Both the position numbers and the translations under genes were made by a program. Source: Lactarius indigo (Eukaryota; Basidiomycota; Agaricomycetes; Russulales; Russulaceae). Taken from it: a DNA stretch of 64,000 bases. This document shows positions 9,880 to 28,160 of the stretch, piece after piece. The notes below the pieces were generated by a model, which saw nothing but the letters and a program-made list of their open reading frames with translations, ran no database searches and was not told the DNA's origin. How positions within the stretch are numbered: position 1 is the first letter of the stretch; every line of letters starts with the position of its first letter. Where the stretch lies: NCBI GenBank assembly GCA_025766275.1, contig JAFKAC010000001.1:930001-994000 (forward strand), given 5' to 3'.

Positions 9880-11387
9880 AAGTCTTGTAGTATGAGGTCT
9901 TTAACCTCGTCCGTACTGTTGGCTACCTGCGTGAGCCATTCCTTTGCTTGTTCCCCCGCCGTCTTTACCGCTTTGATTTGTGGTGCGGGTGTCGCACTGG
10001 GCGCTGGTGTGGCGTATCCTGGTAGCGATGGTTCGTACTGGGAAACGGGTCCCGGGGATCCCGGCCATTGCGGTGGCCAGGCAGTCTCTGTCATCCTGCT
10101 GCTGGACGGAGGGTTCTGCCACTGTCTCTGCTGTCGAGGGTGTGGGCAGTTTCGTGAGAGGTGCCCTGGCGCGTGACAGTTATAACAAAGGACGTTCCTT
10201 AGGTCTCTCCTGGACCCGCCCCTTCCTCGCCCCCGAACCCCGGGGCTGCCCCTTGGAGGGAAGGGTGGCGCTGGCCAGTCATGATGGGGTAACTTGTTAA
10301 AATCGATGTCTTCTGATCCGGCTAGCCGTACTTTGGCACGGTCGGCGGAAGTGTCCATGGCCCATGGGTTAGTTTGAGGCAAGTTTTGCGGTAATGCCCA
10401 TCCCGCATTGCCGGTCTGCTTCTTCGGTTGCGTTGTTGTGCTCTTGTATTCATTGAGCCTTGCTTTGAGATGGATATAATTCTTCTGTCGTTTGAGGACA
10501 GCCCTTTTCCATTCGTCGAACGTCGTGGGTTCGTCAAACTGGAACGCGTTTTTGAACAGCTCCTTGGGCAAACCCGACGTAAATAAGTCAATGGTTTGCG
10601 GTTCGTTGAGGTGGTAATGAGCTTTCCGCGCTAGCTGCTCGAAGTCGTTGACGTACTTGTCAATATCCTCTCCCCCCATTTTGAAGCCCTTTCGTAGTAT
10701 GGCCTGTGCTTGCTCTCTTTCCAGCGTGTTTTCGAATCGCTGACTGAATCCGTCGGCTACGGCGTCCCACAAACCTCGAGTGTAGGGGCTAATTCCTCGT
10801 TGTATTTGTCGATTGAGCCAGTTCAGGAAGGATAGAACCCATTCGCTGACCGCTCCTCCTTTGATGTATGACAGAAACAGGAGACACCTCCGGTAGTCAT
10901 TTCGCATGATAGGGGCGTCTAGATTCATGCCCCAGTACACATGCCACTGTGTGAGAAATTGATCGACCTTAAGTCGGTCTCCGTCAAAGATAGAAGGTGG
11001 CTCGCCGGTTAGCTTTTCGCTGTGGTGCCCTCTGTCTCCTGCTCCTCCACCTCCTCCGTCGCCGCCGCCTCCTCCTCCGGGAGGGGCATGGGGCGGCCCT
11101 CTTGGTGGCTCGGTTCTTCGTAGGTCGAATGGAACACCTCCTCCAGGTGGTGGTGGCGGATCGTCTCCCGGTCCCCCTACTCCCGGGGGTAGCTCCATTG
11201 CCGGTCGTCTTTCGGACGGGGGGTCTCCCCTGTCGGAACCTATTGCTCTGAAAATTGCAGCATCGTCCGCCGTCATGCGTATCCCCGTTTCGGGATCGAT
11301 GGGCATAAGGGTAGCCCGTGCTTCTTCCTGCACTACTCGTGCTTCTTCTAACGCGACTTCTTCCATGGCTCGCGTTATTGTGGCCAT
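9849..11387 (-). CDS. gag: Element A Gag (capsid/nucleocapsid)
   Basis: 512 residues from the first ATG of the sense strand (11387) to TGA at 9849. The frame stays open upstream through 11586 and, across element B, into 21392-21583, but that extension has no ATG. Features: a Gly/Pro-rich segment in the first quarter, a Retrotrans_gag capsid region (FLSYIKGGAVSEWV to the Lys/Arg-rich RAVLKRQKNY), and a CX2CX4HX4C zinc knuckle (CYNCHAPGHLSRNC) near residues 401-414. The last codons contain the slippery heptamer G GGA AAG at 9876-9870, in the right register for a -1 shift into Pol. The protein packages element RNA in virus-like particles (family knowledge). Confidence 0.88.
   Translation of the reverse strand: MATITRAMEEVALEEARVVQEEARATLMPIDPETGIRMTADDAAIFRAIGSDRGDPPSERRPAMELPPGVGGPGDDPPPPPGGGVPFDLRRTEPPRGPPHAPPGGGGGGDGGGGGAGDRGHHSEKLTGEPPSIFDGDRLKVDQFLTQWHVYWGMNLDAPIMRNDYRRCLLFLSYIKGGAVSEWVLSFLNWLNRQIQRGISPYTRGLWDAVADGFSQRFENTLEREQAQAILRKGFKMGGEDIDKYVNDFEQLARKAHYHLNEPQTIDLFTSGLPKELFKNAFQFDEPTTFDEWKRAVLKRQKNYIHLKARLNEYKSTTTQPKKQTGNAGWALPQNLPQTNPWAMDTSADRAKVRLAGSEDIDFNKLPHHDWPAPPFPPRGSPGVRGRGRGGSRRDLRNVLCYNCHAPGHLSRNCPHPRQQRQWQNPPSSSRMTETAWPPQWPGSPGPVSQYEPSLPGYATPAPSATPAPQIKAVKTAGEQAKEWLTQVANSTDEVKDLILQDLWGKEGFQGA
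9870..9876 (-). promoter_or_regulatory. -1 frameshift site between Gag and Pol of element A
   Basis: The heptamer GGGAAAG is read G GGA AAG in the Gag frame and fits the X XXY YYZ rule. A -1 slip continues directly into the Pol frame (GGA GGG TTT), eight codons before the Gag stop. No downstream pseudoknot was assessed. Confidence 0.65.
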
Positions 11388-11586
11388 GATGGCTGGGGAT
11401 CGGATATGAATGGGTTCGGGTTCGGTAATGTGTGCGGACTCAGCTCGCTCTACTAGGAGATCTTGTATTGCTCCTCCGCTTGTTTCGGTTTGATTTGGTT
11501 CCCGTCCTTCGCTTTCTTCCTCCGATTCTTCCGATACTACTTCTCCTGTAGAGTGTTCTCGTATTTGTCCGTCAATGGGTCCCCAG
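11388..11586 (-). other. Element A 5' leader, part downstream of the element B insertion
   Basis: Minus-strand leader between element B and the Gag ATG. It continues the leader at 21392-21720. No ATG occurs on the sense strand, yet the Gag frame is open throughout and acidic (SEESEEESEG). Confidence 0.6.
11582..11586 (+). repeat. Left target-site duplication of element B (CCCAG)
   Basis: CCCAG directly precedes the left LTR of B and recurs at 21392-21396 after its right LTR, inside the leader of element A. Confidence 0.9.
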
Positions 11587-12266
11587 TGTGATGAACTCAC
11601 TGTCACTCGACAGCGAGGGGTACGGTTGAAGATGACGGCGGGCGAGGTGGAGACGGAGAGGGTGTCGACGGGGGTGAAGAAGAGGCGTTCTTGGCTCAGA
11701 GAGGATAGTGGCGCACACAAGGTGGGGCACTCGAAGGAGCTGAGAGGCAAGAGGGAAGATGTCACAAGTGGACAGTCTGAGGGACTGTCCGATAGATTGA
11801 GCTAGCTTATATACTACAGGGGGTGGTCTGTGCGTAACTTTAGGGCAGGCTTAGGGCCTGTCCACGGGTGCTGCGCAGTACTGCGCATTGGAACATTCTA
11901 GAGACATCTAACAATAGAGTCCAATCAGAAGGGGTTTAAACATAGAACGACTGCGCCGCAGTCAATGGCGCAATCTTGCGTCAAGATGGCGTGATTCCGC
12001 AGTCAATGCGGGAATCCCCGAGGGATGGTGACTTGGTTGATTATCTTCGTTGATTGATCAACAATCAACCGTTGATAAGAACGCGTGTACACAACACGTG
12101 GCTTGAGGGACGTGACTGATCACGTGACAGATCACGTGATCGTTTGAGAACAGAATTCAAACTCCGATTCGGAATTCCCCTTTAGGAAGGTGATTACATA
12201 AGACTGGGCCGACGCGGACCGGTCCTAAGCGCCCTTGAGTCACGACCGAGTTATAGGTTCGTGACA
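11587..12266 (-). repeat. 3' LTR of element B
   Basis: 680 bp, TGTGATGAAC...GTTCGTGACA on the plus strand, matching 20712-21391. It contains three CACGTG boxes (12095-12100, 12121-12126, 12133-12138). Confidence 0.93.
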
Positions 12267-12280
12267 GTATCCCCTTTTTA
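12267..12280 (-). other. Polypurine tract of element B
   Basis: On the minus strand TAAAAAGGGGATAC directly precedes the 3' LTR and overlaps the TAA stop codon of pol (12280-12278). Confidence 0.65.
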
Positions 12281-15200
12281 AGGCCGTGCTATTCCACGAG
12301 CACTAACGGTCTTTGGTCGAGGGGCGGAGGGGTTGTCCTTGTGGAAGCATTGGACAAGTTCTTGGGCGTGGGTCATTTGAGAGGCAGGGAGCCAGGAATT
12401 CTCGGAGTTGGGATACCCCTTCCATTTGATCAGGTAAAGTACGCCTTTCTTGTTAGGCGATACCTTTGACTGTAGGACCCTTTCGACTTCATAATGTTCA
12501 TCTTCCCCTTGGACAATTTCGGGGGGTGGTCGGGTGAAGTTAGGGCCATGTGTGGTGTTTTCTTTGTATGGAGAGATCAAGGAGTTGTGGAAGACTGGGT
12601 GGATGCGCCACGTCTTTGGAAGTTGGAGTTTGCAGTTAACTCCCCAGGAAGATAGGACTTTAAAGGGACCATGGTGTCGAGGGGCGAGTTTAGCTTTGGG
12701 GTGGGTAGTGTGGATGTTAGTTCCTTCCAGCCAGACTAAATCGCCTTCATTGAACTTGTGGGGGATCGTGATTGACTTGGAATTTCTCATTACTTCTGCA
12801 GCGACTTTGAGGGCTGCAGTGACTTCAGAGCGGATTCGGTTCAATGCGTCTAGTCTTTCTTCGGCTGCGGGTATCTTGCTATTGAAGTGGATGGGGGGAA
12901 TGAACTCCGGATTGTACCCATACCACACTTCAAAGGGTGACTTGTGAGTTGCACTATGCTGTCGTGCGTTGTGCGCAAATTCCATGAACGGAATTAGGTC
13001 TACCCAGTTGTCTTGTTGGAAGTTACAGAAGACACGGAGGTACTGTTCAAGTTCTTGATTTACGCGTTCGGTTTCTCCATCTGTTTGCGGATGGAAAGCC
13101 GTGGACAGGGTAGATTTGACTCCTAATTTTGTCCAGATTTCTTGCATTACTTTCGATGCAAATTGAGGGCCTCTGTCGGAAATAACCTGCCGAGGTAGGC
13201 CAGTACGTCTCCAGACGTTTTCAAGGTAAAGTTGAGCTGTTTCGTCTGCAGTGATGGTTTTGTTGCAAGGAGAAATGACTATTGCTTTGCTGAGTCGGTC
13301 GACTACTACGAATAGTGAATCGTGGTTGTGGGATAGGGGGAGGTCAGTGATGAAGTCCATTGTGATGGTTCCCCATATTTCTTCAGGTATTGCATTCGGT
13401 TGTAGGGGTACTTGGGTACGTGGTTTGATTTTAGTGGCTTGGCATGTGGCGCAACCATCAACATAGGTCTTGATGAATGTTGATATGCCTGGCCACCAGA
13501 AGTCTCGAGATATCAATTCGTAGGTTTTCCATCGCCCCGGATGTCCTGTGGCAATGTGGTCATGGTATGTTTTGACAATGTCTCTTCGTAGGTTGTCGTC
13601 TTTGGGAACGTAGACTTGTCCTTTGAACAAGATAATGCCGTCTTCTAGATTCCACTCTTCTAGACCCTTAGCTAGGGATCGAGGGCCGTTTTTTAGAAGA
13701 GATTCTAGGGCCATGCTGACCTCCTTGTCGTAAGTCTGGGTGTTTTTGATTCGTTGTCGGAGGGTGGTATCTCCTTGAATGGTTACTGCAGTTCTTTGTA
13801 CTGCGTTGATGGAAAAATACTTGGTGTCCAGGAGTACTCGCTTTTCATCTTCATCTGCTATCCCCTTTTTATGATCTGGACGCCGAGACAGTGCATCAGA
13901 TTTATTCTGTGTCCCAGGTTTGTGGATGATGATGAACTGGAAGCGAGAGAGGAAAAGGGCCCAACGGGCCTGTCGTCGGGAAAGCTTCTGCTTTGTGGTA
14001 AAATAGACAAGGTTGCCATGGTCAGACCAGATTTCAGTAATGTCATCGTGTCCTTCCAGGTAGTGGCGGAAAGCGTGTAGGGCATGGATGATGGCGAGGA
14101 GTTCCTTGTCGCAAATCTCATAGTGGCGTTCGGCAGGAAGGAGAGATTTGGAAAGGAAGGCGACGGGGTGCCATCGTTGCAAGGCATCAGGTTGTTCAAG
14201 AATGGCACCGGTAGCAAAGTCGCTAGCGTCGGTGATGAGGCGGAAAGGTTTGGAATGGTCAGGTAGGGCAAGGACAGGAGCTTCGGTGAAACACTTGATC
14301 AGGGTGCGGAATGCGCTTTCCGCCGCGGTACCCCAAGAAAAGGGAACATCTTTCTTGGTTAGGTCAAACAAGGGGCGGGCGATAGTGGAGTAGTCTTTAA
14401 TGAAGCGTCGATAGAAATTGCAAAAGCCTAGGAAGGCTTGGACTTGTTTGACAGTGCGTGGGGTGGGCCATTGAGTAATGCCCGCGACTTTTGCAGGGTC
14501 CATAGAAACTTGGCCATCGGAAATGACAATTCCGAGGTACTCAACAGAGGTTTGTGCGAAGGTACATTTTTCAGGTTTTAGGTAGAGGTCGTGGCGTTCC
14601 AGTCGTTGAAGCACATCGTGCGTCAATGCTGTGAGTGAGGAGATATCTTCTGTGAAGATCAAGATGTCATCGAGGTAGACCACTACATGTCCACCGTCGA
14701 TCAAGGACTCAAAGATTTGGTTCATGAATGTCTGGAAGGTGGCAGGGGCGTTGCAAAGGCCGAAGGTCATTACTGTGGGTTCAAAGAGTCCTAAGGATGT
14801 CTTGAAAGCTGCCTTGTACTCATCGCCTTCTCGGATGCGGATATTGTTGTAACCCCAACGAATATCTAGCTTGGTAAAGTAACGAGCACCATGAAGTTTG
14901 TCAATGAGTTCGGGGATAAGGGGGAGGGGTGCTGCGTTCTTAATGGTTATATCATTGAGGGCACGATAGTCTTGTACAGGTCGGAGTTTGCCATCCTTTT
15001 TGTCAACAAAGAAAAAGGGGGAGGCCATGGGTGACTTAGATGGTCGAATGTAACCTTTCTTTAGGTGCTCGGAAATGTACTCCTTGAGGGCATCGGATTC
15101 CTTGGGTGTAAGTCGATAAATGCCACAATTCTTCATAGTGGTTCCTGGTTTGAGATCAATTGCGTGATCCCAGGGCTGATGTTGGGGTAGTCGGTGGGAC

Positions 15201-16048
15201 GCGATTTCGCTGAATACCTTAGTATATCGTTGGAAGTGGCTCGGAATGTGGTCGGTGGAAGGCTTAGGTGCAGTGCGTGCTGCTATCTTGGTGCTTGTAG
15301 TTATCTTTGCTCGGATGGCAAGGTGGTCATACTTGCTAAAACTGTGGATCCACAGCCAGGGTTCGCAGGCATCTTGGATAAAGGCGGGCTCCAGGGTTTC
15401 AATTTCTTCCCCCACGGGGAGGCAGGTTTCTTGGTCAGGGTCAAGTTCCAGGATGTTAATAGTCGTGTGTCGTGTCTGTGGAATTTTTGAAGAGATGACA
15501 ACTGCTGAGGAGGACAGGGTACAGGTTCTTGGGCATCGTGTGAAGGCTATCTTTGGTTGATGCCAATCGATTTCAGGGTTATGTGCTTGGAGCCAATCTG
15601 TTCCTAAGATTATATCATGCTCCCCTAGAGTAGTTGCATAGAGTTCCACGGTTTCGTCGTGGTAGTCGTTATCAGAAGTTCTGATCCGTAGCTTCTGGAT
15701 CGTAGTATACCTAACAGATCCCGTTTTGTTGGGAGACCCATCCACGTTTCTAACTGGTAAGGGTTTAATTAGTGTCCTCATTGTTAGGTTGTTTGCACGC
15801 GCAAACCCATCATCCACGATGATGCCCTCCGCGCCGCTGTCCAACAGGGCACGGGCACTGATTTCTTTGCCAGACTTCTTTCCTACTAGTGTAACTCTGA
15901 GAACAATTGAAGGAGCTCTCCTATTCCGAATTGTTTCTGCAGGTACATGCTCGGCTCCGAGCGTCTCTAGTAGGGAAAGGCCGTGTACAACGCTACTGGC
16001 ACGAATACTTCCAATCGACAGTGCTACGATGGAAGAGCCTAAAAATCC
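12278..16048 (-). CDS. pol: Element B Pol: protease, reverse transcriptase, RNase H, integrase, chromodomain
   Basis: The frame is open from the gag end (about 16048) to TAA at 12278, in the -1 frame relative to gag; no ATG precedes the protease. The first ATG, at 15844, falls inside the protease motif, in LLDSGAEG, so Pol is evidently made as a Gag-Pol fusion. Counting from 15844: protease Asp2; reverse transcriptase YLDD 390-393; RNase H ITDASD near 537-542; zinc finger with Cys near 798-801; integrase Asp830, Asp890, Glu926 (D-x35-E); chromodomain about 1112-1170 (LIKWKGYPNSENSW). It ends shortly after the chromodomain, unlike element A. All catalytic residues checked are present and there are no internal stops. 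Confidence 0.93.
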   Translation of the reverse strand, partial: GFLGSSIVALSIGSIRASSVVHGLSLLETLGAEHVPAETIRNRRAPSIVLRVTLVGKKSGKEISARALLDSGAEGIIVDDGFARANNLTMRTLIKPLPVRNVDGSPNKTGSVRYTTIQKLRIRTSDNDYHDETVELYATTLGEHDIILGTDWLQAHNPEIDWHQPKIAFTRCPRTCTLSSSAVVISSKIPQTRHTTINILELDPDQETCLPVGEEIETLEPAFIQDACEPWLWIHSFSKYDHLAIRAKITTSTKIAARTAPKPSTDHIPSHFQRYTKVFSEIASHRLPQHQPWDHAIDLKPGTTMKNCGIYRLTPKESDALKEYISEHLKKGYIRPSKSPMASPFFFVDKKDGKLRPVQDYRALNDITIKNAAPLPLIPELIDKLHGARYFTKLDIRWGYNNIRIREGDEYKAAFKTSLGLFEPTVMTFGLCNAPATFQTFMNQIFESLIDGGHVVVYLDDILIFTEDISSLTALTHDVLQRLERHDLYLKPEKCTFAQTSVEYLGIVISDGQVSMDPAKVAGITQWPTPRTVKQVQAFLGFCNFYRRFIKDYSTIARPLFDLTKKDVPFSWGTAAESAFRTLIKCFTEAPVLALPDHSKPFRLITDASDFATGAILEQPDALQRWHPVAFLSKSLLPAERHYEICDKELLAIIHALHAFRHYLEGHDDITEIWSDHGNLVYFTTKQKLSRRQARWALFLSRFQFIIIHKPGTQNKSDALSRRPDHKKGIADEDEKRVLLDTKYFSINAVQRTAVTIQGDTTLRQRIKNTQTYDKEVSMALESLLKNGPRSLAKGLEEWNLEDGIILFKGQVYVPKDDNLRRDIVKTYHDHIATGHPGRWKTYELISRDFWWPGISTFIKTYVDGCATCQATKIKPRTQVPLQPNAIPEEIWGTITMDFITDLPLSHNHDSLFVVVDRLSKAIVISPCNKTITADETAQLYLENVWRRTGLPRQVISDRGPQFASKVMQEIWTKLGVKSTLSTAFHPQTDGETERVNQELEQYLRVFCNFQQDNWVDLIPFMEFAHNARQHSATHKSPFEVWYGYNPEFIPPIHFNSKIPAAEERLDALNRIRSEVTAALKVAAEVMRNSKSITIPHKFNEGDLVWLEGTNIHTTHPKAKLAPRHHGPFKVLSSWGVNCKLQLPKTWRIHPVFHNSLISPYKENTTHGPNFTRPPPEIVQGEDEHYEVERVLQSKVSPNKKGVLYLIKWKGYPNSENSWLPASQMTHAQELVQCFHKDNPSAPRPKTVSARGIARP
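16039..16046 (-). promoter_or_regulatory. Candidate -1 frameshift at the Gag stop of element B
   Basis: The end of gag reads GA TTT TTA G across both frames: Gag reads TTT TAG, and a one-base slip back reads TTT TTA into Pol, which is open on both sides. This is not a canonical X XXY YYZ heptamer; single-tRNA slippage next to a stop is the inferred mode. Confidence 0.5.
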
Positions 16049-17589
16049 TCATTAATAGGCACCGAACGCGGACGTGCGTCCGGGTCAAAAGGGAGTATCT
16101 CTCGATATATCGCTCCAATGTTTGCTGGGTGGTCAGCAGGTGCTTCCTCCTGACTTGGTTCATCAATAAAGGCGCCGCGCGCCCTAGCGTTGTTGTTGGA
16201 TTGGCCTCTTTTGGCCTTCATGGCTGCCGTCTTGGCGTGACATTCTTTAAGTACGTGGCCTGGTTTTCCACAGTACAGACAGAGTTTGTTCTTGAAGCGA
16301 TACTCTCGCTCTTCCTTGGTAAGTTTGGCTCTTGGGTTTGTAGTACGTGATGAGGAAGCGTTGACATTTACGCTATCGTCCTCTGCTAGGACGGCTCGTC
16401 CTGTGGTGGGCTTATGGGTCTTGTTAAACTGGTTAATGGCGTGACCAGCGTAGACTCGATAGACGCGGTCAAACTCCCTCGCTTTCTCTACGAGGTCATC
16501 GAAGGTCGTGGGTAAGGGGGATACGCCGAGCAACTTCATGTTCAAGGCGGTTGGAATAGCTTGTCGGAAAGCATACATCTTTGTTTGCTCATTTGCGCCA
16601 CTTCGTTGGGCATGGGTGGACCATTCTTGGAACCACTCGTTGAACGGACGAGTGCCCATTTTCATGGTATACATCTTGTTTGTGGCTTCCATAGCCGTAT
16701 GAGCGGGGACGAAGTGTTTGTTAAAGTCAGATTTGAACGTTGCCCACGTTCCAAAGGAAACGGCGGCTCCGCCGGTCGGGTTTAAGGCTTTCTTCTGCCT
16801 ATCCTGGGCCCACTCGCCCGCAGAGGTGCCCACCTTAAAGTAGGTAAGGGCCGTGGAAATCTTCTTATCATCGGTGTCGAAGATAGAACTGTTCAGGTGA
16901 AAATAATTTGCCAAATTATTCCAGAAAGCTTCTGCTTTATCAGACTTTCCGTCGAAGGGTTCGGGTGCTGCTCCTAGGATTTTTGCAGGTGCAGGGGCTG
17001 CCATTGCCGTGGGTACAGGGGGAACGGATAAAGGGGGTGCTGAGGAAGAGGCTTGAACGGTTAGGGGTGGCGATGGGAGTCGATGTGGGGGAACTGGGGC
17101 AGGGAGACGGCTAGGGCCGGAGGTACTAGGGGAAATCTGGGGTGTCGAGGGTCGGGAGGTTACTTGGGATAGTAGACCAGAGAGTTTTTTGGTAGTAGTG
17201 TCTAGGATTTGTGATACTTCTTCCGTATCACTTGTTGAATCGTCGGATTCGCTAGGTGTGTTGAAGTGGACTGGTTTGTTGTTTAGGTAGGCCCACTGTT
17301 CGTTTACAAAGTTCCAGCGGACGTTCTTTCCCTTGAAAGTGGCGTGGAGGGTGATGTAGTTTATGTTCTCAACTTTGTCGATACCCGGGAAGGCTTCTTT
17401 GAGGTCCTGAAAAACAATTTGGTGTTGGGTGGCGACAATCGTCCACGGGTGTTTCCCAGTAGGGCTGGAGATGTCTTCTTCTTTCCACTTGGCGTAATAA
17501 AGGTTGTCGGTGAGAGAAAAATAGGGGTCGAAGAAGTATACTGGGACGTTGGCTTTTTCTTCTGGTGTTAGAGGTCGCTGTGTATTCAT
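16039..17589 (-). CDS. gag: Element B Gag
   Basis: 516 residues from ATG 17589-17587 to TAG 16041-16039. The start overlaps the stop of the preceding frame as ATGA. An N-terminal region of about 190 residues ends in a Pro/Ser-rich linker. The capsid-type region follows (EPFDGKSDKAEAFWNNL to about 380), then a CX2CX4HX4C zinc knuckle at 437-450 (CLYCGKPGHVLKEC). This ATG is the first on the sense strand for some 3.3 kb. The final codons read GAT TTT TAG, a run of five T before the stop. A -1 slip of the Phe codon there would enter the Pol frame. Confidence 0.9.
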   Translation of the reverse strand: MNTQRPLTPEEKANVPVYFFDPYFSLTDNLYYAKWKEEDISSPTGKHPWTIVATQHQIVFQDLKEAFPGIDKVENINYITLHATFKGKNVRWNFVNEQWAYLNNKPVHFNTPSESDDSTSDTEEVSQILDTTTKKLSGLLSQVTSRPSTPQISPSTSGPSRLPAPVPPHRLPSPPLTVQASSSAPPLSVPPVPTAMAAPAPAKILGAAPEPFDGKSDKAEAFWNNLANYFHLNSSIFDTDDKKISTALTYFKVGTSAGEWAQDRQKKALNPTGGAAVSFGTWATFKSDFNKHFVPAHTAMEATNKMYTMKMGTRPFNEWFQEWSTHAQRSGANEQTKMYAFRQAIPTALNMKLLGVSPLPTTFDDLVEKAREFDRVYRVYAGHAINQFNKTHKPTTGRAVLAEDDSVNVNASSSRTTNPRAKLTKEEREYRFKNKLCLYCGKPGHVLKECHAKTAAMKAKRGQSNNNARARGAFIDEPSQEEAPADHPANIGAIYREILPFDPDARPRSVPINEDF

Positions 17590-18308
17590 TCACCTCTCCT
17601 GGTGAGACGGGTGACAGTCCAACTGTCCAGCTTCCAGGGGTAGTAGACCTTGTATGCAGGGAGGAGGATAGCTCTATCTGGACGATGGGGTCTTTGTGAA
17701 CGACGGATCCAATGGTATTCTTCCCAAATACCAAAGTGGGTCAGGGTTGTCTTACTTCTCCACAAGAAGTCTTGGAAATACAAGGGGCTTGTCGAAATCT
17801 CGCTTATGCGCGTAAGTGGTTGGGAAAAATACAGGGTTTCAAGATTGTGCCGGTTTTGGTACAACAGAGAACAGTGTCTTCTGAACACGTCGAGTTCTCG
17901 GGGGGTTCGGGTTGGTAAGCTCTTGGTTACTAAGATAGCCTCCGGGAGATGACAATGGATTTCCCGGGGTTGGGTCTCGAGATACTGAGCTTCGTCACTG
18001 CTTGTGGAATGCTGCCTCGCAGTCGGAGTTGCTTGGATACTGGGGTACACCGGTTCACTTGGACCGGCTTGGTTAATACTTGGAAGGGGAATTTGAGTGT
18101 TGGTAGCTCGACGAGCTCTGGGGGCCCTTCTTGGGGTAACAGGGGTACTAGGGGTAGAGGCTATGGGCCGATCGTCTACTTGGAAGCGACGATGAGTTCT
18201 TCTTTGGGCGGCGTGTGAGGATGCCAGGTTAATTGCCCAATGAATTGGATCCAGGATTTGACTTGGGAAATTGTTAAATTTTACACTCGTAAAATTTATC
18301 TCGACAAT
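17586..18308 (-). CDS. Element B pre-gag ORF3, no methionine codon, function unknown
   Basis: About 240 codons open from after TAG 18311-18309 to TGA 17588-17586. There is no ATG in it or in any other sense frame of the region. The protein would be rich in Arg, Pro, Ser and Thr, with an aromatic C-terminal part. Its stop overlaps the gag start (TGA and ATG share TG), a layout used for termination-reinitiation in other retroelements and viruses. It lies in the same frame as ORF2, separated from it by two TAG codons, so it could be reached by readthrough. No domain recognised. Confidence 0.5.
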   Translation of the reverse strand: MVEINFTSVKFNNFPSQILDPIHWAINLASSHAAQRRTHRRFQVDDRPIASTPSTPVTPRRAPRARRATNTQIPLPSINQAGPSEPVYPSIQATPTARQHSTSSDEAQYLETQPREIHCHLPEAILVTKSLPTRTPRELDVFRRHCSLLYQNRHNLETLYFSQPLTRISEISTSPLYFQDFLWRSKTTLTHFGIWEEYHWIRRSQRPHRPDRAILLPAYKVYYPWKLDSWTVTRLTRRGE

Positions 18309-18317
18309 CTATACTAT

Positions 18318-19301
18318 CTAGTCCCTTTTTCTATAAGGTAGATAGTTAACTCCAGGGGACCACAACACTACGTTGGGGGGTGTCGGAGGGGTGTCGGGGC
18401 GATAGCCGCAGGTGCAGACTTCTTGCGAGCACCAACAGGGGCCTGAGGTCAGAGTTGGTCCCCAACCGTCGTTAGGACTAGGCGGCTGGTTAGTATCACC
18501 GTTGTGCAGGGAGATGTCGGAGTCTGAAGACTCGTCTTCAGTTTCAGGGGAGCTAGGGGGAAGCCGATTTGTGATTCGGCGGAGTAGGGGCGGAGTTCGG
18601 AAAGTTTCTCTGGCGTTGAGAATTGACACTAGTTCGGGGTCGTCAGAGGTCGAAGGGGGGTAGTGCCAGATGCTAGGGTTGACAAGGTTCCGGTCAGGGT
18701 TTGATAAGGTAGTTTCCCACACAGAGGTGGCGAAGGAGTAGGTGAGTTCCGAACTATCGGAGATGACTAGACGGGGGGCGGAGTCGGGGTGAATGACCAC
18801 TCGAATTTCTTGGAAGGAAATCTGTATTTCCTGGTATGTGAGGTGGAGTCGGTCGACAAAGTGAAGAGAGAAGCCGTCTTCAAGTTGCCGGACGTAGTGG
18901 TCACGACGAGGGGGAACGTGGACAAACCAAAGATAGTCACTTTTGGTCCACACTAGGAGTTGGTCTGTTGGATGGTTGGTAGCAGAGACGGAGTTTGAGA
19001 GGTGCCAATAAAGGAGTTGCTCGTCGGCGGCCTTGACGACTTCAGAAAGATCGTCAATAAACTCGTGGTAAACCCTTTCAGGGATGACTTCTCCAAAGTC
19101 AAAGAGGTCGATAAGGGTACGTAGGGCGGTGGGGGGTTCTGTCCAACAGTCAAGACGGGGGTTATCGATGAGGTCGTAAGTGGAGGTAACGGGGTAATAG
19201 CGGTCAAGTTGCCGCTGCCTGTGGGACTCGAAGTTAACTTGGGCTCGTGCAAGCCTTTGTTCTTCAGATAAGTTGAAGGTAAATGGAGTAGAAGGAGGCA
19301 C
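18318..19301 (-). CDS. Element B pre-gag ORF2, no methionine codon, function unknown
   Basis: 327 codons beginning at GTG 19301 directly after an in-frame TAA and ending in TAG 18320-18318. No ATG is present. The sequence looks protein-like: a charged helical N-terminus (LSEEQRLARAQVNFESHRQR), aromatic-rich middle, acidic Ser/Asp segment, then a Cys-rich end (CWCSQEVCTCG) before the stop. A GTAAGT donor near 19351 and a TTTAAG acceptor just before the GTG would form a short intron, so the start may be an exon boundary. No family recognised. Confidence 0.5.
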   Translation of the reverse strand: MPPSTPFTFNLSEEQRLARAQVNFESHRQRQLDRYYPVTSTYDLIDNPRLDCWTEPPTALRTLIDLFDFGEVIPERVYHEFIDDLSEVVKAADEQLLYWHLSNSVSATNHPTDQLLVWTKSDYLWFVHVPPRRDHYVRQLEDGFSLHFVDRLHLTYQEIQISFQEIRVVIHPDSAPRLVISDSSELTYSFATSVWETTLSNPDRNLVNPSIWHYPPSTSDDPELVSILNARETFRTPPLLRRITNRLPPSSPETEDESSDSDISLHNGDTNQPPSPNDGWGPTLTSGPCWCSQEVCTCGYRPDTPPTPPNVVLWSPGVNYLPYRKRD

Positions 19302-19408
19302 TTAAATCACTCGATTTAAGTCCAAAACCCAAATAAGTAAATACTTACTTACTTGCGTTGCACTTAAAACACTCGTTTCAAGACAAGGCAATATATATAA
19401 CCACTTAT

Positions 19409-20929
19409 CTAAAGTGGTTGGTTATCGGGGAAAGTGGAAATGAAGCTAAAGGGGTCGGCAGGAATACGAGGCGAAAGGCAATAGGCAAGAAGGTGGGGGG
19501 CAGAACGAACCAAGTCCTCAAAGAAGTAGGCCTGGTGATAAGCGTAAATCTGTCCGTCGAAAGCGAAACGCAAATGTCCGTAAGTAGTCACAATCCTCCC
19601 GTCCAAGAAGTCCTGGATCTCTAGGGTTACTAGAGAGTCAATGTACCCTGCCCTGTGGACGTTAGTAAGGGGGGCGAAGGCGCGTCTCAGTCCTTCCCTG
19701 AAGTCGTAACGGATGGTCCCAAGGGGGGTGTCAGGGGAGGGAAGGTCGTAGATGGCCTTGGAACAGATGTACAGGGGTGGGAAGTCGGGGTGTTGAGCGG
19801 GGTCAACAACGCGCGGGAAAAGAGTGTAGACGTGAGGGGGAAGAAGACGGAAGGGGGTGACAGAAGGAAAGACCAGGGGAAAGTTAGCGAGGGAGGTGGC
19901 AAGGGGAACTTTACTAATCAGTTCCCGGAGGGTCGTGGAAGCGGGCCGCCAAGATTCTCCTTCGGGGGTGACGACGGCGATGTATTGGTGGGGGTGTTCT
20001 CCTTGGGAAAGGAGGCAAGGGGGCGCCTGGTAGGCAGTGGGACCGAGGGGGGGAAGGTTCTCTTGTTCGGGGTGGGGGGCCGGAGGGAAGACGGGGCCTT
20101 GTTCTGCTACTCGCTCGTAGTCAATCGGCGAGTCGGGGGTTGCAAGGCGGGAGGGGACCGGAACAGGAGACGGAGAACGACGAGGAGTCGGAGGAAGAAC
20201 AGGAGGTGGCGAAGGAGAGCCACGAAGGGAAAGAGGGGGGCGGGGGGTCGGGACTCGGAGGGGAGGCGCAGACTCAGCGCAGGGTTCAGGGGATAGGGGG
20301 ACGATGTTCCCGTTGAGGTCGAAGATCTCGAGGACCTCTTCGTAGAACTGGGCGGTGCTGGGAGATAGGGGACGAGGGGAAGGACGAGGAGTGGCTTCTT
20401 CAGCCGGAGCGTAGGGGTAGACTAGTTCGGGGGTAGCGTCCCGAACGAGGGCAACAGGGGCAGGGGGCTCGTCACCACCAAAGGTGGCGGGGGTGTAGGG
20501 GGCGGTGAAGCGGAGGCTGTCAAGACGGACAGCAGAGGTGGAGGGAACAGGGGAGGTGCGGGAAAAGTCGAGGGGGCTACCTTGGTTGTCGAACTCCGAC
20601 TGGTAGCTGGCAGAGTCTCCGTCCCACTGACCGTACTGCGAGAAGTCGTACTCGTAGGTGTAGTCAGTCACTGGGAAGCCCGAGGTCAGTCTATTGGAGA
20701 GACTGTCCAAGTGTGATGAACTCACTGTCACTCGACAGCGAGGGGTACGGTTGAAGACGACGGCGGGCGAGGTGGAGACGGAGAGGGTGTCGACGGGGGT
20801 GAAGAAGAGGCGTTCTTGGCTCAGAGAGGATAGTGGCGCACACAAGGTGGGGCACTCGAAGGAGCTGAGAGGCAAGAGGGAAGATGTCACAAGTGGACAG
20901 TCTGAGGGACTGTCCGATAGATTGAGCTA
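19409..20929 (-). CDS. Element B pre-gag ORF1, begins in the 5' LTR, no methionine codon
   Basis: About 506 codons open from a TAG near 20932-20930, inside the 5' LTR, to TAG 19411-19409. There is no ATG anywhere in it. If transcription starts near 20903, the RNA enters this frame almost at once. Composition: Ser/Thr/Pro-rich N-terminal half with strings of prolines, then a better structured C-terminal half (about 170 residues) with aromatic and hydrophobic periodicity. Initiation would have to be at a non-AUG codon. No family recognised. It could also be an untranslated leader whose coding look is relic. Confidence 0.5.
20700..20709 (-). other. Self-priming primer-binding site of element B
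   Basis: On the minus strand TGGACAGTCT lies just inside the 5' LTR (which ends at 20712). It is the exact complement of AGACTGTCCA at 20903-20894, the inferred RNA 5' end about 30 nt from the TATA box. No tRNA-type primer site is evident. Tf1 and sushi-type elements prime in this way. Confidence 0.6.
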
Positions 20930-21391
20930 GCTTATATACTACAGGGGGTGGTCTGTGCGTAACTTTAGGGCAGGCTTAGGGCCTGTCCACGGGTGCTGCG
21001 CAGTACTGCGCATTGGAACATTCTAGAGACATCTAACAATAGAGTCCAATCAGAAGGGGTTTAAACATAGAACGACTGCGCCGCAGTCAATGGCGCAATC
21101 TTGCGTCAAGATGGCGTGATTCCGCAGTCAATGCGGGAATCCCCGAGGGATGGTGACTTGGTTGATTATCTTCGTTGATTGATCAACAATCAACCGTTGA
21201 TAAGAACGCGTGTACACAACACGTGGCTTGAGGGACGTGACTGATCACGTGACAGATCACGTGATCGTTTGAGAACAGAATTCAAACTCCGATTCGGAAT
21301 TCCCCTTTAGGAAGGTGATTACATAAGACTGGGCCGACGCGGACCGGTCCTAAGCGCCCTTGAGTCACGACCGAGTTATAGGTTCGTGACA
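20712..21391 (-). repeat. 5' LTR of element B
   Basis: 680 bp, matching 11587-12266. A TATA box (AGTATATAAG, minus strand 20940-20931), three CACGTG boxes (21220-21225, 21246-21251, 21258-21263) and the inferred RNA start near 20903 lie within. Pre-gag ORF1 begins in its transcribed part. Confidence 0.93.
20931..20940 (-). promoter_or_regulatory. TATA box of element B
   Basis: AGTATATAAG on the minus strand, 28-37 nt before the inferred start at 20903. Confidence 0.6.
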
Positions 21392-21720
21392 CCCAGTCTG
21401 TTCGGCTATTGAGCTCTCGTGCGTCGATGTCGCAACGATATCTGGGTCCGGCTGGTCGTACAACGTCCCACTGGGAGTCTATGGGGTTCCACACAACTTC
21501 CACCCAACACAAGTGGTCGAAGTTGAACTCAACTGGGCGGAACCTCAAAGGTCCGTTGAATTCTACAAAATATCCGGTTTCTTCTTGTCACTCTCTCCAA
21601 CTGGCAGCTTGTAAAAAGCGCGTAGGGACGTTTCGTTCTCCCCTTCTTGGGATTGAATACGGACGAAAGCTTGTCCACTGGTCTCTGGTTGTTACCGCCA
21701 CGATGATATCTTGGTCTTAA
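21392..21720 (-). other. Element A 5' leader, LTR-proximal part
   Basis: Lies between the 5' LTR of A and the element B insertion, with the CCCAG duplication at its inner end. There is no ATG on the sense strand. A frame open from about 21583 continues in phase across element B into gag, so an N-terminally extended Gag from a non-AUG start is possible. The primer site is at 21708-21718. Confidence 0.6.
21708..21718 (-). other. Self-priming primer-binding site of element A
   Basis: On the minus strand AAGACCAAGAT begins 2 nt inside the 5' LTR and is the exact 11-nt complement of ATCTTGGTCTT at 21947-21937, about 27 nt from the TATTTAAA box. The length and position are like those of Tf1 self-priming. 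Confidence 0.65.
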
Positions 21721-22392: not shown

Positions 22393-25300
22393 TTTAACCC
22401 TAAAGCGGCACAGATCCACCTATTCAGCCGGCCAACACCTACTCTGAGGACTTCAGGCAGCCCGATCACTATCAAGGGGAAGCTGCAGAGCCTGGTAAGT
22501 GTATTGCTCTAATATAAAGTGATGTCTGTGCTTACTTCTGCTGTACTTAGATGATCTTTTTAGTCCTGATATGGATATTGATCTAGGCTCTCCTGATGCT
22601 GCGGCTCAGGCTGTTGACAATCTGGCTTATCTAGGGATGGACCTCAATATCTCTGACTCAGAGATGGACCACACTGTGTTGTCTGAGGCTGGCTCTGGTT
22701 TTATGAGCTCTGACTCTGACTCTGAGGCTGAGGCTGAGGCTGAGGTTCATCCTGCTTTGGTGGCCCCCTCCATAGGGCATCCAGATACTTCTGACCCTAG
22801 CTCCTTTTCTGGGAGGGAGCCAGCTGGGGGCAGTCCTGATGAGGGCGATGACTTTGTTGGTGCTGACATTCCAGAAGTTGTGAGAAGACTTCAGACACAG
22901 CTTTTATCTGGCTATATCCCTCCTAATCACCCACCCATTGATGACCCTCGAGGTCGTACACCTACCCCAGATGAGGTGCTGTCTTTAAAGCACTACATTG
23001 CATGGGTCGACTCTCGCGGTACTGTGAAGGCATACAAGCTCCATGCACAGGTTCTTCAAGAGGCTACAGGTACTGAGATCCTCAGCCTGTATATGGTGCG
23101 AAAGCTTGCCATAGAGCTTACAGGGCTGTCATCTCAGCTAGTTGACATGTGTCCCAAGAGCTGCATGGCTTTCACTGGAGAGTTTAAGGACCTTCATTCC
23201 TGCATCTATGTTCGCAACAAACAGCTTGGGCCATGTGGCCAACAGTGCTATGACAAGAATGGTCATCCAAGGGCCCAAATGTTCTACACCCCCATTGCCC
23301 CTGTCATCCAGTCATTCTATATGAATAAAAAGATGGCAGAAGCTATGCGATACCGACATGAGCACTTACAAAGGGCTCTGGAAGAGCTGGAGCCTGATTC
23401 ATCCCCCACCACATACTCAGATTTCTCTGACTCCATTAATCATATCAATCACTCCCATTTATTCCAAGATCCCAGAGATACTGCAATAACCATCTCAGGT
23501 GATGGTGCTCAGCTCACTATGAAGAAGCAGTCTGATGTATGGGTCCTTGTTGTCACAATTCTAAACCTTCCTCCCAACATGCGATCTAAGGCTGCTAACA
23601 TCATTATTCCACTTGTCATTCCAGGGCCCTCTTCACCTGGAAATGTGGAGTCATTCATTTATGTCCTCTATGAGGAGCTTGCAAGGCTTAGTGTTGGTGT
23701 GTGGTCCTGGGATGCACTTTCAGAACAGTACTTCCTCTTGAAGGTCTTTCTTTGTGGTGTTCTTGGAGATATGCTTGGTTCTGCAAAACTTAGCAGAATG
23801 GCAGGGCATATGGCTATATATGGGTGTCGTTTTAGTATGGTGCGGGGTGCACGTGCTAGTAAAGACAGAGGTATGAGTATATCACTTGAATATTTTTGTA
23901 TCATTTTATCTTACTATTTTATATTATAGGTGCTAAATCCCAGTACTATCCCCTCTCCCCACCTCAAAAACAGGAGATCAATGGTGATCGCCCTGATTTT
24001 GACATTTTTGCCTTGCCACTGCGGACTCTAGAAGACTACTGGGAAATCATCAAGAGGCTTGAAGCTGCAAAGAGCAACAAGACACAGTATGCAGCAATTG
24101 TGAAGGAAACTGGTGTCTCTGGTCTTCCTATTTGTGCAGCCAGCCCTGCCTTCTCACATCCATTCTTTTTCCCACTTGACCCCTTCCATCTCTTCTATGA
24201 AAACTGCATGCCACATATCTGGGATATCTGGGTCTCATTTAGCTCTCAGTCAGAAAGTGTTTTTATGGGCCAAGATATGGCTTCAAAGCTTGGAGCAGAG
24301 GTGGAGAATGCTATGGCAACACTACCCCCATCCTTCTGTGGACCTATTCGGGATCCATCTAAGAAGCGACAAAGTCAATACAAGATATTTGAGTGGATGG
24401 CCCTCCTCCACTGGTACATTGTCCCTATTGCATTGGAGCTTGGATTCAATCTAGAGGTGGTCAAGAACTTTGCCATATTCTCAAATGTGGTGGAGTATGC
24501 TATGACAGCTGTCCCTCGAACACAAGATGATTTAGCCAAGCTCCATGATAAGGTTATCCTTTTTCTTCAAGGATTTGAACATCTCTATGTTGGCAATGAC
24601 CCATCCAAAATTTCTCGCTGCAGGCTATGCATCTTTCAGCTCATCCATATTCCCTTCCATATTTCATATAATGGCTCTGTCAGATTTGGCTCTCAAGCTA
24701 CATGTGAGCGGACCATTGGAGATATTGGACATGGTATAAAGTCAAAAAAGTCCCCCTTCAAAAACATTGTCTCATACAAGACAGACAAGCAGTCTGTTAG
24801 AATCCTACATCTCTCCTACCCAGCACTCTCCCCAGGACCTGAAGCAAAGGCTCAAAGGACTTCACTGTTCAAAGAATTTCCTGTCACCAAGAAGCAGAAA
24901 AAGGAAGACCCTAACTTGAAGGCCCACTTACAAGCAATTCTATCTTATCCTGGAATAGGGCCAGATCCCACATATACATGCTGGGGAAAGTGCCCTCTTC
25001 CTGGTGGTATTACCCTTACAAGCCAGCTCTTTGAGCTTTCAAAAAGGTCCCCTTCACGCTCCTCAAGGTACTTTGAGGCTCAGCTAGAGCTGTTACAGTC
25101 AAAAGATGAGCCTGTAGATGAAACACAGATAGAGGTGGAGAAGACCAAACCAATTTTTGGAGAGGCCTTAGCCTTCTATACTGTTTCTGGCCTCTCCCTT
25201 GTTGTCTATCATCCATTGATAGAGCGCCACCAAAAGTTTGGAAGGTGGTCTGGGAAGTGGTCATCAGCAGTATATGCCCTTGAGACATCAGCAATAGTCG

Positions 25301-26149: not shown

Positions 26150-28160
26150 CCGAGGAGCTAGACAAAAGTCGACGCGATGAAATAGAGCCTGGCGTAGACT
26201 CGATAGCCGATGATAATGGTGTCATCGTTGGTAGCAAGGGTTCGACAATGACAGAATACTTGATAGAGAGGAACGTGAAGTGTGCGCGTAGTTGGGCACA
26301 TCCCGACCATAGGTCGCCTAGACCTTGAACAATCTATCGGACATCAATCAGCACATGTACACCACCAAGACGACATCGCAGACTGTACCTGATTGAATAG
26401 GAGACGAGGCTAACCGTTGCCGGGCCACTTGGATCGTCGGGTCAGTAAAGCGGGGGAACTGATCTTTCAGTCTGAGGGGAATGTTTTCTGTCTTCGCGAT
26501 CCATATTTGGCCCCTCAAGGACTTGAACCCGACGCAAGAAATATGAACACGGAAGCGGGAGGCATATACAAATTCGAATAGATCAGGCTGAATCCGACTA
26601 GTGTGCCAAAGATTTAGCTCTTCCAACGAGGCTAACTCCTCTGCACGTCGACGATGGTGAAAAAAAACGCCCTCAAGACCTCCCCGAAAGACATACCTTT
26701 CAACCTCAAAGCCTCAGTTCGGGTGCTGTTCTCCAGGATATGTAGCTTTTGCTGAGAGGCCTCGATAGATGCCATTGTTTCGGCCTTTTCTGTTTCGAGG
26801 TTAATGAGCTTCTAAGTTCTAACGGTTTTAGTTTCGCACTTGCCTCTGAGACTTCTGTGCGAAACTCGTTCAGAGCAGCACTGATCGCTCGCGTTAGTCG
26901 CTCGTCTGCTACTAGGAACGAGGTTACGATACCCTTGTTCTGCAAGAGTGGCCTTCAGTTCGGTCAGGTATTCCTGATCGTATTTTGCGATTTCGGCGGC
27001 GATGCTCTCCTCTTGCTCCAACTCTTTCATGACTTGTGCGTGCTCTTCTCGTAATGACGGTAAGAGGCTTCGGCTTCCTGAATCACGGACTCTAAAATAC
27101 TGGCGTCCTATGCGACGGTCAGACCAAGCTGTTACTAGCGCTGGGTGTAGTCTTACTTACTGAGCTCCGCGAAGCCCTGGTTGGCAACATCGTACAGCTG
27201 TTCTACCCACTGCAGCCTACAATCGTACCGCTGAGATCTTGCGGTGGCGTGATTGTCGGTTCTGATAAGTTTGGGTCATCGCTAAGAGCACGCCAGCTGT
27301 CATGAAATAAGTAGAATGAAAGAAGACATACCGGCAATTCTCCCTGTGTCTGTTCGTCCACTGTCGTATATTCTCGGAACAACATGGGGGTAACTTTTAG
27401 CGCTTCTGCCTCTGCTTGATGGTAAATTTCCTTGCTGTGTTCGACCCGCCTTCGTAAGTCAGCCGCGACACGGAAATACAGTTCGAGTTGACGCACGTCA
27501 ACAGCCATCGTCACCACGTAGTCGGCCAGTGTTGTTCTTGCCCTTTGAGAAGAGGCCTGATGCCGCGTAGATTGGAGCTGATGTATCATGAGCATCGGGG
27601 AGCAGCAAGTCGTCCAGGAAACGGATACCGGTCTCATTGAGGGATTGCTCGATGTCAGGGTCAGGGACAAGCTCAGGACAACCGCAAAACGTACTTTCGA
27701 AGTGTCCGCAGGACATGAACACCAAGGGTAGTCAATACGAGATCTGAGCCGTTCGCGACCAAACTCCTCCGCATCGCGCATCGGCCGTAGGTTTCCCTGA
27801 TGTTGTGCGGCGGCTACTCGATCGTGGCGTAGACGTGGAAGCCCAGTGATACGATCGATCGACCGTACTGCACCCTTCAGCAGCCAGTGGGTATCTCGAG
27901 GTTGCCAAGATACTTGAGAAAATTCAGGATCAATATGATTATCGGCGGTTGTGAGAAAGTATCTGGAGAACTTACCCGGGGTGTCGCGACGGGCACAGGA
28001 CCAGTACCTGGGTCTCCTCCGCAGCGGGTTGAGGGACATCTTCAACGACCTCCTCGGCAGATTGAGGGGGAGTGACTTGGATGGCCTCTTCTATGAGCGG
28101 TTGGGGAGCAATTGGGACAGGCTCTTCGACAGGCCTGGGGATAGCCCGAACTTCCTCGTC
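26150..28160 (-). pseudogene. SPC7/SPC105 (KNL1) kinetochore gene fragment captured in the transposon
   Basis: Minus-strand blocks in the order of fungal Spc7. An acidic repeat-like region (VEEPVPIAPQPLIEE, about 28135-28010) comes first. Next is IEQSLNETGIRFLDDLLLPD (about 27660-27590). Then TLADYVVTMAVDVRQLELYF through LFREYTTVDEQTQGEL (27535-27334). Coiled-coil blocks LAEQGY and ALNEFRTEVSEASAKL follow (27030-26830). Last comes the C-terminal globular part, LNLWHTSRIQPDLFEFVYAS (26626-26348) continuing to CAQLRAHFTFLSIKYSVIVE (about 26320-26240). Frameshifts and stops interrupt it. Spc7 scaffolds the outer kinetochore. The N-terminal MELT-type region was not seen. A pseudogene copy is much more likely than the functional host gene, given frameshifts and location inside transposon ends. 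Confidence 0.7.

Follow-up and report, generated by a model that had tools for sequence, protein, structure and literature searches.

Structure of the element

We analyzed a 64,000-nucleotide (nt) stretch of the Lactarius indigo genome (contig JAFKAC010000001.1, positions 930,001 to 994,000; here called the window), following an earlier note that had pointed to a long region without ATG ahead of gag in a Ty3/gypsy element. The element occupies 11582-21396 of the window and reads on the minus strand. Its boundaries, transcription signals, and gag and pol genes are as follows, in window coordinates.

21392-21396 and 11582-11586: target-site duplication CTGGG (5 bp)
20712..21391, minus strand: 5' long terminal repeat (LTR), 680 bp, TG...CA
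20931..20938, minus strand: TATATAAG (TATA) box, read from the sequence
near 20903, minus strand: predicted RNA start at AGACTGTCCAC, ~30 nt downstream of the TATATAAG box
20700..20710, minus strand: TTGGACAGTCT, putative primer site, directly after the LTR and inside predicted intron 1
16039..17589, minus strand: gag (Retrotrans_gag; CCHC match weak)
12278..16048, minus strand: pol (protease, reverse transcriptase, RNase H, integrase, chromodomain)
11587..12266, minus strand: 3' LTR, with a single mismatch to the 5' LTR

The Pfam domain order of pol (RVP_2, RVT_1, RNase H, H2C2, rve, Chromo), the C-terminal position of the chromodomain, the LTRs, and the short target-site duplication are all those of Ty3/gypsy chromoviruses. 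Its sequence identifies the element as a Ty3/gypsy retrotransposon that has a chromodomain and, ahead of gag, three extra genes. The single mismatch between the 680-bp LTRs marks it as a recent insertion. At the predicted RNA start, AGACTGTCC is the complement of the TTGGACAGTCT motif that follows the LTR, a pairing that might constitute a self-priming site if the RNA end is where we predict it. The element sits inside a second chromodomain Ty3/gypsy element (about 9849-21600); when its flanks are joined, a 642-codon frame runs open across the insertion site, in the gag frame of the outer element.

Absence of ATG ahead of gag

Between the predicted RNA start and gag (17590-20903), the minus strand contains no ATG, while the plus strand contains 30 (that is, 30 minus-strand CAT). 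ATG is the sole absent triplet among all 64 in this stretch, and 2,000 dinucleotide-preserving shuffles of it contained a mean of 18.8 ATG and a minimum of 8. The entire ATG-free run, from an ATG beginning at 21013 to the gag ATG at 17589, measures 3,424 nt; the next longest on either strand of the window is 771 nt. Five ATGs are found in U3 of the LTR, at 21324 to 21013, and since none follows the predicted RNA start, the depletion appears to concern transcribed sequence. Unspliced RNA of the window's copy would have its first AUG at gag. The earlier note had described an ATG-free sense strand opposite a complement with about 30, had held that composition cannot explain this, and had placed the depletion from just past the TATA box to the gag ATG, and all three observations are borne out by these counts. 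It had also reported three long frames of about 506, 327, and 240 codons. The stop-to-stop frames are indeed 505, 327, and 240 codons long and are followed by gag and pol, but the genes of the first and third are likely shorter than their frames, with the likely start of the first at codon 86. We refer to the three genes as open reading frames (ORFs) 1 to 3.

19409..20671, minus strand: ORF1, 420 codons from a GTG or split AUG
18318..19301, minus strand: ORF2, 327 codons
17586..18254, minus strand: ORF3, 222 codons from a CTG

We asked whether the absence of ATG is a property of this copy or of the family. The host genome contains at least 40 scored DNA matches to the stretch and 126 protein matches to ORF2, fragments counted, which fall into two lineages; ORF2 identity is about 82-100% in lineage 1 and 51-57% among full-length copies of lineage 2. 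Of 45 pieces fetched, 42 spanned the whole stretch and, with the window's copy, gave an alignment of 43 copies. No ATG lies between the predicted RNA start (20903) and gag in 22/43 copies, and CAT averages about 32-33. When counting begins at the TATA box, 20/43 copies are free of ATG, and three copies have one at 20917, which falls downstream of the TATA box but ahead of the predicted start. All three frames are intact in 31/43 copies, 18 of them without ATG and 13 with one to five. Among the 47 sporadic ATGs in total, 31 are at sites where the majority of copies have ACG, which by its sequence pattern is a mark of CpG decay. Three of the five scored lineage 2 copies have no ATG. The absence of AUG is conserved across copies and in the second lineage, as the earlier note had proposed to check; the ATGs whose scatter through related elements it had named as damaging to its idea are few and lie mostly at majority-ACG sites.

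The three frames as genes

None of the three ORFs contains a Met codon, and each is full length from its GTG, GTG, or CTG in 38/43 copies. In seven chosen copy pairs, ratios of nonsynonymous to synonymous substitution (dN/dS, NG86 method) ranged over 0.083-0.207 for ORF1, 0.05-0.274 for ORF2, and 0.035-0.128 for ORF3, with between-lineage dS values of 0.98-2.6 that are close to saturation. Codon evolution is not neutral in any of them, contrary to an outcome that the earlier note had named as refuting its idea, and on this comparison of copies the three frames are genes under purifying selection.

Homologues from sources other than NCBI are similarly poor in Met. No internal Met was found in 13/17 homologues of ORF2, 13/13 of ORF3, and 40/56 of ORF1, with totals of 4/4,974, 0/2,855, and 28/22,255 residues, respectively; these counts register in-frame AUG only, and the ORF1 search scored just the candidates sharing most words. 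The ORF1 and ORF2 match lists included 33 NCBI proteins, 32 of them from Lactarius sanguifluus, L. hengduanensis, or L. deliciosus. The 13 ORF3 matches included no NCBI protein, as would be expected of a gene that offers a gene finder no usable AUG, a result that length limits of the search could also explain. Given purifying selection, the conserved absence of ATG, and Met-poor distant homologues, scanning of ribosomes through to the gag AUG, as first suggested in the earlier note, appears to be the natural reading.

No Pfam match was obtained for ORF1, ORF2, or ORF3, nor for 15 aligned ORF1 proteins. Foldseek searches of the PDB returned no match at E <= 0.001 for models of ORF2 (pLDDT 74) or ORF1 (pLDDT 52), and the ORF2 model had none at E <= 0.001 in a viral structure library. 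The best VIA Z for ORF2 was 3.7, a value that excludes no fold. Sequence searches of the PDB with ORF2 and ORF3 gave no match and one chance-level match (E 0.66), respectively, and Rfam gave a single sub-threshold match. DNA of relatives was not found in a viral contig collection (ORF2 and ORF3 profiles) or a genome contig collection (ORF2 profile). We considered whether ORF1, ORF2, ORF3, and the N-terminus of Gag share an ancestor; five profile comparisons, covering pairs other than ORF1 versus ORF3, gave this no support, with a best E of 0.013 (ORF2 versus ORF3). The ORFs represent three protein families that Pfam does not name; homologues occur in Lactarius (for ORF1 and ORF2) and in many other contigs, and the families are easily overlooked because they have no Met codon.

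Predicted introns at the first codons of ORF1 and ORF2

Short introns with the following signals are predicted at the starts of ORF1 and ORF2 (a slash marks the splice boundary).

20671..20725, minus strand: predicted intron 1, A/GTGAGT ... CTGAC ... CAG/TG, 54-56 nt among copies
19301..19352, minus strand: predicted intron 2, A/GTAAGT ... AAG/TG, 47-53 nt among copies

Donor and acceptor of both introns are present in 43/43 copies, both lineages included. A GTG stands where each frame turns conserved, again in 43/43 copies for ORF1 and 43/43 for ORF2, and indels that are not multiples of three sit upstream of these GTGs. An in-frame stop, TAA, immediately precedes the ORF2 GTG in 43/43 copies, and a stop lies 6 codons ahead of the ORF1 GTG in 35/43. 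Both GTGs are preceded by A and so read AG/TG. Removal of intron 1 would join A (20726) to TG (20670-20669) to form the ORF1 AUG, and removal of intron 2 would give AUG CCU CCU as the start of ORF2. Intron 2 has tandem donors at 19352 and 19348, each following an A, and the tandem is found in 38/43 copies. Eukaryotic exons usually end in G ahead of a donor; here the exon base next to the donors of introns 1 and 2 is A throughout, which is what a split start calls for.

A blind search of both strands of the 64 kb for A/GTRAGT followed by (A, C, or T)AG/TG, with an intron of 42-70 nt, returned four occurrences: one at ORF1, two at ORF2 (the tandem donors), and one elsewhere, without a branch motif. 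CTGAC, a candidate branch motif, is conserved in intron 1. Both predicted introns have conserved GT-AG ends and a host-like length, the latter judged from few candidate introns, namely, six of 52-85 nt at two actin-family host loci whose removal would leave the frame open, including a 52-nt candidate with GTGAGT and a 58-nt one. The script applied to the actin loci required CTNAY and (C or T)AG, so only length and frame are informative in this comparison. The NCBI proteins, which are gene predictions, include 17/33 with the residues (S/L)SD-M-SDY that correspond to the predicted intron 1 junction (CTG TCG AGT GAC A/TG), and 8/33 in which the intron 2 junction reads NAT-M and follows NRV, the residues that a CGAGTG hairpin loop would encode (see below). 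Since A/GTRAGT donors and AG/TG acceptors fall exactly at the first codons of ORF1 and ORF2, these signals suggest that both AUGs are likely created by splicing. Non-AUG translation of all three proteins, as envisaged in the earlier note, would accordingly give way to predicted AG/TG acceptors in ORF1 and ORF2 and keep its place only at the CUG of ORF3.

The start of ORF3 has a different character. Its CTG has A at -3 and G at +4 in 43/43 copies, and no AG/TG is found there. Ten homologues were aligned over this start, two of which begin past the CTG point; Leu-Glu is found at the start in all eight that reach it (in two of them in another column), and residues upstream are unconserved. On this conservation, the CUG is likely a genuine non-AUG start. 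In lineage 1 the stop of ORF3 overlaps the start of gag (ATGA), and in lineage 2 it comes two codons ahead of the gag AUG.

Two further observations concern this end of the stretch. A self-complementary sequence, GACAGTTGGACTGTCACC (17610-17627, minus strand), lies inside ORF3 about 20-40 nt before gag, resembles the sequence at the predicted RNA start, and is unchanged in 16/17 copies compared, from both lineages. In one lineage 2 copy, L056 (G000:C256:74600-78400), a deletion fuses the ORF2 N-terminus to ORF3 in a single 297-codon frame, and there is an insertion in ORF1. We ruled out this join as a splice product, since the deletion lies between short matching sequences and not at a GT-AG junction.

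Hairpins at the predicted splice sites and ORF boundaries

The hexamer CGAGTG occurs 32 times on both strands of the window, and five occurrences close stems of at least 4 pairs. All five belong to this element: the 3' LTR has one and the region ahead of gag the other four. The pre-gag hairpins, together with one of a different loop, are the following.

20721..20742, minus strand: hairpin CTCGCTGT-CGAGTG-ACAGTGAG, intron 1 donor in its 3' arm; 8-pair stem, reduced to 4 pairs in some copies
19399..19419, minus strand: hairpin AACCACTT-TAGAT-AAGTGGTT, loop containing the ORF1 stop codon
19363..19382, minus strand: hairpin H1, CTTGAAA-CGAGTG-TTTTAAG, located 5' of the intron 2 donor
19301-19320, minus strand: hairpin H3, CTTAAAT-CGAGTG-ATTTAAG, within intron 2 and containing its acceptor
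18275..18298, minus strand: hairpin TAAATTTTA-CGAGTG-TAAAATTTA, before ORF3; seen in lineage 1 only

CGAGUG hairpins are found over or beside the predicted splice sites in both lineages. The ORF1-ORF2 junction (19288-19427) folds 4.7 standard deviations below shuffles (z -4.7). In H3, pairing is kept through double changes at two pairs (in 5/5 and 1/5 lineage 2 copies), and the sole change in H1 between lineages is G-U to A-U. The AACCACTT/AAGTGGTT hairpin has CCAC/GTGG changed to CCCC/GGGG in 3/5 lineage 2 copies and is imperfect in the other two. We propose, speculatively, a role for the hairpins in controlling splicing or the packaging of unspliced RNA.

A proposed model of start codons made by splicing

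We consider it probable that the start codons of ORF1 and ORF2 are made by splicing and that unspliced, AUG-free RNA is scanned over 3.3 kb to the gag AUG. Splicing would then decide which gene has the first AUG. With the 55-nt intron 1 removed, A would be joined to UG and ORF1 would be made; with only the 52-nt intron 2 removed, the product would be ORF2; and with both introns retained, ribosomes would scan the 3.3 kb to make Gag-Pol, plus some ORF3 from a CUG that is in good context and that most ribosomes would pass by. Such a scheme would require splicing to be partial and 40S subunits to scan through the remaining RNA. Because the putative primer site lies in intron 1, spliced ORF1 mRNA would not be a replication template. 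A further step, on which our judgment is evenly balanced, is that the retained micro-introns form a multi-way switch choosing the protein made from one transcript, with CGAGUG hairpins as control (perhaps packaging) elements and the unspliced, primer-site RNA kept for Gag-Pol and replication.

A number of points weigh against start codons made by splicing. The proposal, including its primer-site and packaging ideas, is built on DNA sequence and gene models, with RNA and proteins predicted. Near-cognate start codons are not depleted in the stretch, with TTG in excess, and these would drain ribosomes scanning 3.3 kb. At least one ATG is present in 21/43 copies, 13 of which have three intact frames. 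ORF3 is outside the splice scheme. The branch motif of intron 2 is weak (CTTAT or CTTAA), and both introns are retained in all 43 aligned copies, which fits unspliced replication and equally fits no splicing. A search for intron-less copies found no match to the intron 1 junction pattern and four to that of intron 2, two of which were inspected and are unrelated sequence and two of which were judged by letters alone. Among the NCBI models, 16/33 are without the first junction and 25/33 without the second (many stop short of it), they disagree with each other outside the junctions, and one from Lactarius sanguifluus (P0042) passes from the last ORF1 residues straight into ORF2, possibly as a further splice product or a prediction error. 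An M or V as the first residue of homologues from outside NCBI may follow source conventions and cannot count as evidence of a spliced AUG. Finally, the other two folded regions are unremarkable (z -0.8 and -1.9), and conservation in lineage 2 is poor for hairpin H2, which lies at the intron 2 donor: one pair is changed on both sides in 3/5 copies and broken in 2/5, and another is broken in 3/5.

Of the alternatives, the one that survives best, which we nonetheless regard as unlikely, is that all three ORFs start at non-AUG codons (GUG, GUG, and CUG) on unspliced RNA and that leaky scanning takes ribosomes to gag, the mechanism of rice tungro bacilliform virus (RTBV). The three codons are conserved in 43/43 copies, and RTBV is described as scanning about 900 AUG-free nt with AUU as its ORF I start (PMC5902531). 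This account is opposed by the poor context of the GTGs, with a pyrimidine at -3 in 39/43 copies for ORF1 and 43/43 for ORF2, by splice donors and acceptors at exactly both GTGs and almost nowhere else in the window, and by the use of the two junctions in 17/33 and 8/33 NCBI gene models.

It is improbable that both introns are always removed and that ORF2, ORF3, and Gag are made by reinitiation, aided by hairpins and the ATGA overlap. The ORF1 stop in a hairpin loop would suit this mechanism, as would an ORF3 stop that in each lineage either overlaps the gag AUG or lies close ahead of it, but a translated ORF needs no freedom from in-frame AUG, and yet AUG is absent in every frame; moreover, genomic RNA has to remain unspliced for copying. 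The stops in hairpins had also suggested readthrough, or stop-codon bypass, fusing ORF1-ORF2-ORF3-Gag, an idea that we dropped because translating a fusion would not require AUG to be absent in all frames. Slightly more improbable still is a single large intron, of the kind that the earlier note had named as refuting its idea. It would run from the donor in the leader (20725) to an acceptor immediately ahead of gag, so that the gag mRNA would have a short leader and the extra genes would be made from other RNAs. A CAG does lie a few nt before the gag ATG in 16/17 copies compared, but that AG is lost in lineage 2 copy L051, a 3.1-kb intron would be unusual in fungi, and the 3.3-kb absence of AUG would stay unexplained.

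Other features of the window and assembly

Elsewhere in the window, 30793-59388 contains five copies of a gene, mostly about 75-89% identical over 300-nt blocks, the first with a DUF6535 domain. A frame at 22523-23929 (plus strand) has a tnp2-type (Transposase_21) match and represents remains of a DNA transposon, and a frame at 27203-28090 (minus strand) matches the Spc7 kinetochore protein family. Decayed element fragments have the same coordinates on contigs C17 and C279 of G000; the assembly may include one contig twice.

Comparison with known systems

The element shares with chromoviruses (Ty3/gypsy, Metaviridae; Tf1/sushi-like) the Gag-Pol order of protease, reverse transcriptase, RNase H, and integrase, the chromodomain, the LTRs, and the 5-bp duplication, and differs from them in three extra conserved genes within an AUG-free 3.3 kb and in the predicted start-codon introns. 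Tf1 uses a self-primer, and the predicted TTGGACAGTCT/AGACTGTCC pairing here may be a comparable one.

In RTBV (Caulimoviridae), upstream ORFs without internal AUG let ribosomes reach a downstream AUG, according to excerpts of PMC5902531. Upstream ORFs free of AUG in all frames are likewise found in the window's copy and in 22/43 copies. The RTBV stretch described there is about 900 nt, with AUU and AUG starts, whereas here it is 3.3 kb and two starts are likely made by splicing; the ORF3 CTG would fit a non-AUG start such as that of the first RTBV ORF, whereas the ORF1 and ORF2 GTGs coincide with predicted acceptors.

Among plant retrotransposons, Ogre (Ty3/gypsy) has an extra ORF upstream of gag (PMC2533021) and spliced transcripts (PMC3735527). 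Excerpts of these sources describe one such ORF in the Ogre family and an intron in pol and leave an AUG-free design unmentioned; the element studied here has three pre-gag ORFs. In BARE (Ty1/copia), a small alternative intron (104 nt) sets what the RNA encodes, and translation and replication pools are separate (PMC3735527, in excerpt). Splicing in BARE ends the frame after gag to give a Gag-only RNA, whereas here it would create start codons. The earlier note knew of no Ty3/gypsy element with such an arrangement. As regards extra ORFs ahead of gag, Ogre is a precedent (PMC2533021); no Ty3/gypsy element with splice-made starts or an AUG-free gene block appeared in the titles and abstract openings of the open-access literature searched.

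If true, splice-made start codons on an otherwise AUG-free RNA would be a new way for one retroelement RNA to serve several genes plus replication. Rather than hiding downstream AUGs, the element would have lost every AUG before gag, and splicing would install one where it is wanted.

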